Shown here: positions 11,622 through 13,878 of the stretch, piece by piece
Position numbering within the stretch: position 1 is the first letter of the stretch
How the letters are laid out: each line of letters opens with the position of its first letter
Notes under the pieces: model-generated
Told to the model about the DNA's origin: nothing
Databases searched by the model: none
What the model saw: only the letters and a program-made list of their open reading frames with translations
From: Sulfolobus sp. S-194
GTDB lineage: Archaea; Thermoproteota; Thermoprotei_A; Sulfolobales; Sulfolobaceae
Direction: 5' to 3'
NCBI RefSeq assembly: GCF_012222305.1
Contig: NZ_CP035730.1
Span: 2,259,501-2,323,500 of the forward strand
Length of the DNA: 64,000 bases
Position numbers and translations under genes: made by a program

Positions 11622-11935
11622 TCAGCCGGACTTAAGGGAAAAACACTTCCTTGATAACACCCTACCCCTTTTACCTCTTGAACTACGCGATAACTCAAGC
11701 CCCTCCAAGAGAGATTCGCAAAACTCCCACAACCTAACCCTCCTCCAAGAACGAACCATAAACCAAACATTCAAAATAAGAAAGAAGAACGAGAACCAAC
11801 TCCTTCCTAACATCACAACTCCTACTCCTAATCCTAAACTCCTCCAAAGAACGAAAAGCAGTCTCAACACCCCACCTACACCTATACATCTCAGCCAAAA
11901 CAACAGCCCCTTGAACATCAACCTCACCCTATATA
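11622..11935 (-). pseudogene. C-terminal part of an ISH3-like transposase, cut off by IS110 insertion
   Basis: Read on the minus strand this contains AEMYRCRWGVETAFRSLEEF, the C-terminal Y-R-W-x-ETxFR signature carrying the catalytic Glu of IS4/ISH3-type DDE transposases, then RKELVLVLLSYFECLVY. One frameshift leads into VRLWEFCESLLEGLEL near the end. Its upstream part is found at 13150-13878 on the same strand, on the other side of the IS110 element, so both belong to one split gene. Confidence 0.72.
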
Positions 11936-11944
11936 GGTTTATTA

Positions 11945-12105
11945 GTCGGGGAGAGTAATATTCTCCTCAGCTGGGGAAAAATGGTCGATCTCGTAACTGA
12001 AGCAAAGTCTTCGGGTGAGGGCGTGACGAACCCCTACCGTCGGACTGAACATTGTGAAAATATTCACGAATATAGGTGTGACAAAGGGGTAGGGGTAATT
12101 GGAAT
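11945..12105 (+). other. Structured GC-rich leader of the IS110 element (candidate bridge-RNA region)
   Basis: Nested complementarity is visible: GGAGA/TCTCC around a GTAATAT loop (11950-11965), CCCCTAC near 12031 pairing with GTAGGGG near 12090, and GTGAA-AATA-TTCAC (about 12054-12067) inside it. IS110-family elements such as IS621 encode a non-coding bridge RNA in an end region. Here the region overlaps the N-terminal extension of the transposase frame, which precedes the conserved GIDVSK. An RNA product is inferred, not shown. Confidence 0.35.
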
Positions 12106-13052
12106 AGACGTATCAAAAGAACACTTGGTAACAAGTAAGGGGAGGGTGAGGAAATACGAGAACAACAAAGAGGGATATGAAGAGATACTTGAAATGAAAC
12201 CTTGTACAATAGTCCTAGAACCTATGGGAGTTTACGCAATAAGGCCTTCACAATACTTCAAGGAGAAAGGAATAAAAGTACTACAGGTTAGTCCAAACAT
12301 GTTATCAAGAGAAAAGGAGTTTAGGGGGAAGAAAACAGATTTTTACGATGCTGAAAAACTAGAAAACATGGTTGATAAGGCAAAGGAGTACGAGTATAAC
12401 CCCTTAAGAGAACTAGTAACACTCTACCTCTTCCTAAAGGACATAGAGACGAAATACAAGAATAGGCTGAAGAGGGCATTATTCCTAGTAAGCGACAACA
12501 ACAAGATAAGCAAGGAAAGGTTAGAAAAACTCGCAATGGGTGACTTTACACAAGAAGAACTATACCAACTAGAATACACACCAATAGTAGTTGAAGAAAT
12601 CAAAGTCCTAGCAAAAACACTCCTAGAAACGCAAGAGAGGTTGAAGGAGGTTAGGAGGATGATTGAGGGGCAAGTTCCTCAAGACCATGTCCTATTGACG
12701 ATACCAGGTGTTGGGAGGCTTGCAGCTGGTATTATTATTGGTGTTGTTGGTGATGTTAGGCGTTTTCCTAAGCCAGAGTCATTTGTTGCTTATTGTGGTC
12801 TAGATCCCGTAGTGGAGAGGAGTGGAAGGGCTGTGGTAAGTAGGGGGATTTCCAAGAGGGGTAATAAGTACTTGCGTAGCTTGTTCTACTTTTTGGCTGA
12901 GGAATTATTCTAGGAACCCAACCTTGTTGAAGTTTTATGAGACACACAAGGATAGGTTGAAGGGTAAGAAGTTGTATGTCGCTTTGGCTAGGAAGTTGGC
13001 AAGGGTTGTTTGGAGTGTTTGGTATAATAATAGGCCTTATGAGGCCAAGTGA
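11981..13052 (+). pseudogene. IS110-family transposase, frameshifted near C-terminus
   Basis: The first 310 residues (11981-12913) hold the DEDD/RuvC-like domain (GVIGIDVSK near residue 40, VLEPMGVY, GKKTDFYDAEKL) and the Transposase_20 domain (LTIPGVGRLAAGIIIG, FVAYCGLDP, ISKRGNKYLRS). The frame then hits a stop at 12911. A one-base shift after 12902 continues with NYSRNPTLLKFYETHKDR to a natural stop at 13050-13052, 49 residues that match normal IS110 C-termini. Whether the shift kills activity is unclear because the catalytic domains are intact. ATG 11981 and an in-frame GTG near 12023 are alternative starts. Confidence 0.82.
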
Positions 13053-13075
13053 TTAAAGAGGCCTCCCCTTGATCA

Positions 13076-13102
13076 CCACGTGGGTTGAAAGGACTCACGT
13101 GG
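13076..13102. repeat. Perfect hairpin at IS110 3' end
   Basis: CCACGTG at 13076-13082 is the reverse complement of CACGTGG at 13096-13102, with a 13-base loop. It lies in the non-coding 3' end of the IS110 element, next to GGCCTTATGAGGCC (13033-13046). It may be a transcript terminator or part of an end-recognition structure. Confidence 0.55.
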
Positions 13103-13149
13103 CAATGTTAGTTGACACTATGCTTGAAGTTTGACCGAAAGGTTTATTA

Positions 13150-13878
13150 CTGAACGCCCCTAACCAAAAACCCCACAACCTTACCATCCCCCCTCTTAAG
13201 CACAATTAAATAAGCACCAGAATCATGCCTCACACACAAGAAACCAACATACTTCACCCCGGCGTAATTAACATCAACTTGCTTAAGCCTCTTCTCATAC
13301 TTCCTATACATTTGAACCTTAGCAGCTATAACAAAGTCCACACCCAACTCCAAGAGAAACTTGATCACATACAGCAAACTCCCTATCTGCAAAGACCATG
13401 ACAAGTCTAAGCCCCTCTTTATCCAGTTCTTCTTTAAGGACTTGCATTACTTTTTGAAGTCCTCGGCTATTCTCTTTATTGTTATTGGTAGGACTTCTAG
13501 GAAGGCTTTTTTTCTTCCTAATATTGTTGCTTGGGCTAGTCCCCAGCTAGTCCCCTTATTTGGTCTACTTAATAGTGTTTTATCCTTGTGGTATTGTGGT
13601 ATTGAGTGTAGGTCTATTGTTACTCTTCTATCCCTAGTTTCTCTTAATGCTTTCTTTCCCAATTCCTTGATTGCTTTTCTCACGTCTTCAACATTGATGT
13701 GGTTCAAGGCTCTTCTTCCCTCGTTTCCTAGTCTTGTCAAGTATGTTCCCCTAGCTTTAAGTAAGGCCTTGAGGAGTTGTTTAGGGAAAAGTATTATAGG
13801 GAGAGTTGAGTAAATTATCTTGAGGGCGGACCTGGCGAAGTCCCTATTGGTTTGCTTGACCCATTTTGTCTTAGGCAT
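13150..13878 (-). pseudogene. N-terminal and central part of ISH3-like transposase (split by IS110)
   Basis: From ATG 13878 the frame reads MPKTKWVKQTNRDFARSALK, then VTIDLHSIPQYHKDKTLL (first Asp region) up to a stop at 13447. A shift continues it with VLKEELDKEGLRLVMVFADREF (second Asp region), and another shift gives GVDFVIAAKVQMYRKYEKRL. The C-terminal Glu region is at 11622-11935, displaced by the IS110 insertion. At least two frameshifts plus the insertion make it a pseudogene. Confidence 0.72.

Follow-up and report, generated by a model that had tools for sequence, protein, structure and literature searches.

An ISC1229-like IS110 element of Sulfolobus very probably encodes an IS621-type bridge RNA in its leader, overlapping the transposase reading frame

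The window analysed here is a stretch of 64,000 nucleotides of Sulfolobus sp. S-194 (NZ_CP035730.1, positions 2,259,501 to 2,323,500), and coordinates are numbered from its first letter. It contains an IS110 element that is one of 11 full or near-full ISC1229-like copies in this genome. Alignment of the copies with their flanks and with uninterrupted sites places the left end at CC followed by TATATAGG (11928-11930), and the right end at ACTGAACG followed by CC (13149-13158). The CC core is common to both junctions and there is no longer target duplication, as expected of the IS110 group and as judged from the uninterrupted sites of copies L010 and L011 and of a MITE-like target. The exact position of the left core is ambiguous in the window copy, because a third C is present at 11927. 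The element resembles ISC1229 of Saccharolobus solfataricus, a Sulfolobales IS110 element of ~1.23 kb (PMC10883916), a link based on family, size and host group. The features are as follows:

11928-11929 (+): left copy of the core dinucleotide CC (aligned copies, uninterrupted sites)
11930-13158 (+): ISC1229-like IS110 element, right-hand core CC counted in (aligned copies, uninterrupted sites)
11942-11974 (+): 5' stem-loop of the putative bridge RNA, its loop holding AGTAATA (folds; paired changes on both sides)
11981-12913 (+): transposase frame, open from ATG 11981 through the putative bridge RNA, with a frameshift near 12900 in the window copy
11982-12029 (+): predicted target-binding loop (fold, consensus; variable letters match flanks in other copies)
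11989-11998 (+): candidate left target guide, eight variable letters plus CT adjoining a hairpin (family-wide match to own left flanks)
12013-12021 (+): candidate right target guide, whose final GG would pair with the core CC (family-wide match to own right flanks)
12031-12095 (+): predicted donor-binding loop and closing stem (fold, consensus, protein alignment)
12044-12050 (+): candidate left donor guide ACTGAAC, with the letters of the element's right end (sequence match; changes with the right end in subfamily A)
12070-12076 (+): candidate right donor guide ATATAGG, the reverse complement of CCTATAT at 11928-11934 (sequence match; reads ATATAAG in subfamilies B and C, whose core is CT)
13137-13149 (+): BRE/TATA-like box GAAAGGTTTATTA, pointing outward across the junction (similar box in other copies; putative promoter)
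13149-13158 (+): left donor ACTGAACG plus core CC, the element's right end (aligned copies)

Several side observations concern the element ends. By eye, both ends share a direct repeat, GGTTTATTA, and at one locus (L134, G000:C1:1362400-1363000, minus strand) a MITE-like target holds a 24-base scar, CC TATATAGGTTTATTACTGAACG CC, that corresponds to the two element ends fused across this repeat. Many solo right ends, at several places in G000 that match the query only from ~1060 on, stop exactly at the element's right end and have no left part. In L018 and L019, the left end begins with GAGTGTGG in place of its usual letters; this is the reverse complement of CCACACTC, the right target half found at their right ends. 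The right end also contains a strong hairpin (window 13076-13102) with the loop GGGTTGAAAGGA, conserved in 11 copies. This loop resembles the TTGAAAG end of Sulfolobales CRISPR repeats. In ISC1229 of S. solfataricus, most copies of which are decaying, Cbp1 binds the 3' flank and a junction promoter has been considered (PMC10883916); the hairpin could be this reported Cbp1 site.

The transposase shows the Pfam domains DEDD_Tnp_IS110 and Transposase_20, both above their cut-offs, and thus resembles the IS621 enzyme, a DEDD recombinase with a Transposase_20 domain (PMC11208160). Residues D43, E80, D120, D123 and S281 are invariant (alignment A2), which accounts for the DEDD residues of the RuvC-like domain and the conserved serine of Transposase_20. 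Its nearest solved chains are those of ISCro4 and IS621, through the C-terminal part, and an AlphaFold model of the L010 protein (mean pLDDT 80) matched the same two best, with TM-scores near 0.5 and an rmsd above 7. Some copies carry an insert between the donor loop and the transposase, ~1.5 kb long in L112-L115 and L127, and ~50 bases long in L035, L053, L096 and L103. The L113 insert contains a 414-residue frame on the opposite strand that by eye looks like another IS110 recombinase; the short inserts share end letters with it, and L112-L115 occupy more than one site.

That the leader folds, as the original prediction held, was borne out: z-scores of -4.8 and -5.0 were obtained, the latter for 11942-12095, where none of 200 shuffles was as stable. 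The RNAalifold consensus of 27 leaders consists of the 5' stem-loop, the target loop and the donor loop, with 38 pairs. Six of these are maintained in at least one sequence despite changes in both partners, and most paired columns in the two closing stems do not vary. The leader is thus predicted to form a structured left-end RNA with two internal loops, as described for the IS110 group; the guides were found in the left end, and not in the right end where IS1111-group elements have their guide RNA. Nothing in the window attained the gathering score of an Rfam family. By sequence matching, the first loop would pair with both target strands and the second with both donor ends, the latter through seven-letter matches of both guides that vary only between subfamilies. 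In IS621, the RNA likewise lies in the left end with the target loop preceding the donor loop, the left guides have the letters of the top strand, the right guides are complementary, and the core falls within the pairing (PMC11208160). The present element differs in being crenarchaeal and in having CC as its core.

The original prediction had sought the guides elsewhere. It took AGTAATA (11954-11960) as complementary to TATTACT (13145-13151) at the right junction, and ATATAGGT (12070-12077) as equal to the left flank (11931-11938). All these strings are present at those positions, but the supposed flanks both lie within the element, since its ends are CC followed by TATATAGG and ACTGAACG followed by CC. 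AGTAATA is the constant loop of the first stem-loop and stays unchanged in most copies at unrelated sites, the very finding that the prediction had named as its refutation. In L022, L034 and L095 it has become AATAATA, while TATTACT is unchanged in L034 and L095, for which the right ends are known, and by inspection sister subfamilies A and B lack the pairing, with a six-letter complement left in C. As a constant loop that shows no compensation, AGTAATA/TATTACT was therefore rejected as a guide pair. ATATAGG was correctly recognised as a guide, but its partner is the element's own left end and not the insertion site; 'equal' and 'complementary' are indistinguishable there, because CCTATATAGG is self-complementary. 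The order of the guides, thought to be opposite to that of IS621, is in fact the same. Thus, the observation was partly confirmed and the interpretation partly supported; the evidence offered was mostly wrong, and the real target guides had gone unnoticed.

These target guides became apparent from the variable parts of the leader, which comprise a stretch of eight letters plus CT that precedes a GAAG...CTTC hairpin and another of about seven letters that precedes GGCGTGAC, the remainder being much more conserved. On the left, the variable letters correspond to those of the left flank, and on the right to the reverse complement of the right flank. Guides and flanks were compared in 63 leaders with flanks, taken from the family-matching genomes and the window's genome, in which L130 and L059 represent one locus. 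The left test used 53 of these rows, after removal of L130 as a duplicate, of L018, L019, L094, L104 and L126, which have no proper left end, and of L120, L129, L131 and L143, whose guide is unreadable; the right test used the 43 rows with a right end. Collapsing identical pairs left 45 unique left and 39 unique right pairs. Shifts of 0-2 letters (left) and 0-1 letters (right) were allowed, which were chosen after viewing the data and applied equally to swapped pairs. A score of 7 of 8 was reached by 17 of the 45 unique own left pairs versus 95 of 1980 swapped ones, and 5.5 of 7 by 13 of the 39 unique own right pairs versus 88 of 1482 swapped ones, values that none of 20,000 permutations attained in either case. 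When each unique guide was given a single vote (28 left, 21 right), none of 100,000 permutations attained the observed match for either guide. Wrong-strand scoring gave no signal, being reached by 19,740 (left) and 5,852 (right) of 20,000 permutations. Covariation of loops with insertion sites in other copies, the check that had been suggested, thus fails for the AGTAATA loop and succeeds for the guides at 11989-11998 and 12013-12021.

Full left matches adjoining the core occur in L113-L115 (AACCTCAA), L034 (CCCCTTAA) and L118 (CTTGACGT), and in L123 both halves match (7.5 of 8 left, 7 of 7 right). Two target classes match with a two-letter shift. Below the cut remained 28 of the 45 unique left pairs and 26 of the 39 unique right pairs, including the window copy's left guide, which scores 3.5 of 8 and does not fit its present site; its right guide reaches 5 of 7. 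Seven copies were fetched later, of which four were readable: on the left side two of them score 7 of 8 and a third 6.5, and the fourth shows no match (scored by hand).

The donor guides are nearly invariant within ISC1229 and are therefore testable only between subfamilies. Three sister subfamilies, A (G002, G003, G017), B (G021) and C (G011), share the same plan with a CT core, and their transposases are 42-47% identical to that of L010. The change from CC to CT is accompanied by a change of the guide letters that would pair with the core, so that AG replaces GG at the end of both the right target and the right donor guide; the right donor guide reads ATATAAG in B and C and is short in A. 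In subfamily A, ACCGGAAG is found both in the donor loop and at the right end, i.e. the left donor guide and the right end have changed together. Target matching also recurs in part: in G002 (subfamily A), the guide TTGACTTC is accompanied by the left flank CTGACTTC in six of nine copies but not in the other three, and in subfamily C the left side of L193 matches at 11 of 11 letters, whereas L194 has the same guide and no match. A covariance model built from the ISC1229 leaders gave full-length matches to 13 of 14 subfamily A and three of four subfamily B sources outside its training (E 8e-7 to 0.004); it missed L160 and L191 and reached only E 0.11 for subfamily C. As a separate observation, L012, L013 and L017 of ISC1229 and L160 of subfamily A share a MITE-like target, GACACTAT CT CC ACACTC, with similar guides and with cores two letters apart (CC versus CT).

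Copies of the element have a mosaic structure. The window copy (L009) and L010 show one difference in columns 151-700, 15 in the first 150, where the guides are, and more again after 700. Between L010 and L011 there are four differences in the leader and 124 elsewhere, and between L012 and L102 two and 175, respectively. L090 and L092 have a common left flank (99/100) and a mostly common right flank (74/100, without gaps) but different guides. Of the two guides of L090 it is the left one that fits the site (7.5 of 8, shifted by one), and of those of L092 it is the right one, which fits in part (5 of 7). These patterns suggest that leaders have been exchanged between copies by recombination, and apparently half guides as well. 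As a result, the guide found in a copy may not be the one that directed its insertion, which can explain many of the site mismatches. The window copy is itself a mosaic, with a left guide unfit for its present site and a frameshifted transposase, and its left flank ends in the same 16 letters as that of L112, where the guide matches them (7 of 8).

The sequence of the window copy's site has uninterrupted copies elsewhere in the genome. Two uninterrupted occurrences of the L011 site were found, within the 3' portion of a tnpB-like gene that follows a resolvase gene (IS607-like by eye), and another target class lies within a repeat with inverted ends ~120 bases apart. The listed target classes are thus repeated, probably mobile DNA. 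The three interrupted reading frames that surround the window copy had no Pfam match, and no tRNA gene was found at the subfamily A target (12 loci).

Could these matches have arisen without a guide RNA? Chance pairing of short AT-rich words, with the leader hairpins being ordinary untranslated-region structure, had been raised in the original prediction, and it holds for the AGTAATA/TATTACT pair; many single copies also mismatch their site. For the family as a whole it is refuted by the permutations and the negative strand controls; the covariation of the core between subfamilies and the later-fetched copies also speak against it. We give chance very little weight. Alternatively, the recombinase or another protein may find the repeated sites alone, and the likeness between guide and flank may reflect occasional capture of flank DNA into the leader. 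The targets are often repeated mobile DNA, which could attract elements in other ways, but capture of this kind would have to account for two half guides that sit at the IS621 positions, on the strands used by IS621, and end at the core, as well as for core letters that change jointly in guides and target between subfamilies. We therefore consider targeting by protein alone very unlikely. With guide-target matching, fold and core covariation combined, the possibility of an archaeal bridge RNA in an IS110 leader, which was the headline of the original prediction, is well supported, and the leader very probably encodes a bridge RNA of the IS621 type. Such an RNA is expected in kind, since bridge RNAs are predicted in 85.7% of ISfinder IS110-group elements (PMC11208160).

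The family DNA search gave matches in 16 of 31 genomes. Among 229 genomes of the class, the bridge RNA model had hits at 1e-4 in 14, of which 13 belong to the window's family; copy numbers across the family are lower bounds, with 13 candidates scored per genome. A strong match to the model (G138:C51:1222-1369, E 1.2e-33) lies in a genome of another family with ~70 contigs and represents either transfer or contamination. The plasmid and phage collections gave no DNA match, and the viral contigs encode no relative. A peptide-pattern search of named genomes, which reaches close relatives only, found a single relative, in Metallosphaera yellowstonensis.

In 42 of the 43 copies with a right end, this end contains GAAA followed by a TATA-like word, mostly TTTATTA; L123 has TTTAAATA in place of the usual box, which is still TATA-like. 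In a circular form of the element the word would start 27-29 nt before the foot of the 5' stem-loop (40 copies with the distance read), a distance that fits the spacing of archaeal TATA boxes. The RNA would then be made from the circular form only, and the box is placed accordingly. We infer the following cycle: the recombinase would excise the element in circular form, closed at the CC core, which would bring the right-end TATA-like box upstream of the leader, so that transcription could start at the 5' stem-loop; the first internal loop would pair with both target strands around CC and the second with the element's own ends, after which the recombinase would join target and donor. The element ends, the fold, the family-wide agreement between guides and targets and the concerted change of the core with the guides that pair with it were read from the sequence, whereas the cycle itself is deduced. 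The junction promoter of IS621 is sigma-70-like (PMC11208160), in contrast to the putative TATA-like box of the present element.

Another difference is that the bridge RNA of IS621 is located in the non-coding left end (PMC11208160), whereas here the putative bridge RNA overlaps the transposase frame, rather than lying in non-coding DNA as described for the IS110 group. The same transcript therefore seems to be also the mRNA in this clade, since the transposase frame runs through the bridge RNA. A non-coding location is the described arrangement and, as far as known, not a condition of membership of the IS110 group. In 55 of the 63 leaders, 39 of them unique through the right guide, the reading frame was examined by column shuffles, which ignore relatedness. 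An ATG precedes the left guide in 53 of the 55 copies (GTG and ACG in one each). The 39 unique left guides contain no frame-0 stop where 3.5 were expected, and 44 of 5000 shuffles were as low; no stop deficit was found in frames 1 and 2 of the guides. In the right guides there is one frame-0 stop, which by reading is in the degenerate copy L121, where 3.6 were expected (288 of 5000 shuffles as low). Further downstream, frame-0 stops occur in L034, L125 and L121. The 3' arm of the donor stem (12088-12095) doubles as coding sequence at the start of the recombinase fold. In subfamily C the bridge RNA is also open in frame, in subfamily B a separate frame of 42-45 codons is present there in three copies, and by inspection subfamily A has no such frame.

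These data support, short of proof, translation through the guide RNA. The bridge RNA could instead be untranslated, with the recombinase initiating from a non-standard codon where the donor loop ends, while the open frame would be a by-product of conserved RNA letters. In line with this, the transposase of subfamilies A and B starts with an ATG directly after the donor loop, residues 1-36 are predicted to be disordered in the model of the L010 protein, and the stop deficit of the right guides is weak and comes from a shuffle that ignores relatedness. Yet in the 27 leaders of set A1 no further in-frame ATG, GTG or TTG was seen after GTG 12023 before the donor loop ends, and just beyond the loop only L123 has a GTG and a TTG; the nearly constant ATG before the left guide, and the frame-specific absence of stops in the left guides, speak for translation as well. 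An untranslated bridge RNA is a possibility that we take seriously while inclining somewhat against it. Tentatively, as a proposal nearly as likely to be right as wrong, we suggest that in the ISC1229 clade a single transcript serves as both guide RNA and mRNA. From the target loop on, the bridge RNA would encode a disordered N-terminal tail of its own recombinase, natural guides would have to be stop-free coding sequence, folding of the guide or binding of the recombinase would shut off enzyme synthesis, and new targets within a genome would arise by shuffling left and right half guides.

The ISEc21 seekRNA provides a parallel, as its guide RNA is also located upstream of the transposase and natural redirection occurs between relatives (ISEc21/ISMch6). 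In that system the relatives reside in different hosts (PMC11187229), whereas here many guide variants are found in one genome, with half guides apparently exchanged. In the passages of the ISC1229 account considered here, a guide RNA is not mentioned (PMC10883916). Among open-licence PubMed Central papers, we found no description of an ISC1229 bridge RNA or of a bridge RNA within its coding frame, and no report of a guide RNA within the start of its own enzyme's gene.

The omegaRNA of tnpB elements, also a guide RNA, shares sequence with the coding region of its own enzyme, a nuclease, at the 3' end of the gene. The overlap proposed here is at the 5' end and concerns a recombinase. RNA-257 of S. 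solfataricus may be omegaRNA-like, if the ISC1904 gene that it matches is a tnpB gene. The RNA-257 regulatory RNAs correspond to the distal part of the coding region in an ISC1904 transposase gene (PMC3674436), and RNA-257, considered as a transcript of the present leader, was rejected because it derives from ISC1904.

If the coding overlap holds, the ISC1229 clade would have a guide RNA embedded at the start of the gene for its own enzyme. The family would represent a heat-adapted bridge system of archaea in which natural guide-target pairs are numerous, with several in single genomes, so that natural rules of retargeting could be read directly, and ISC1229-like systems may offer thermostable candidates for bridge editing.
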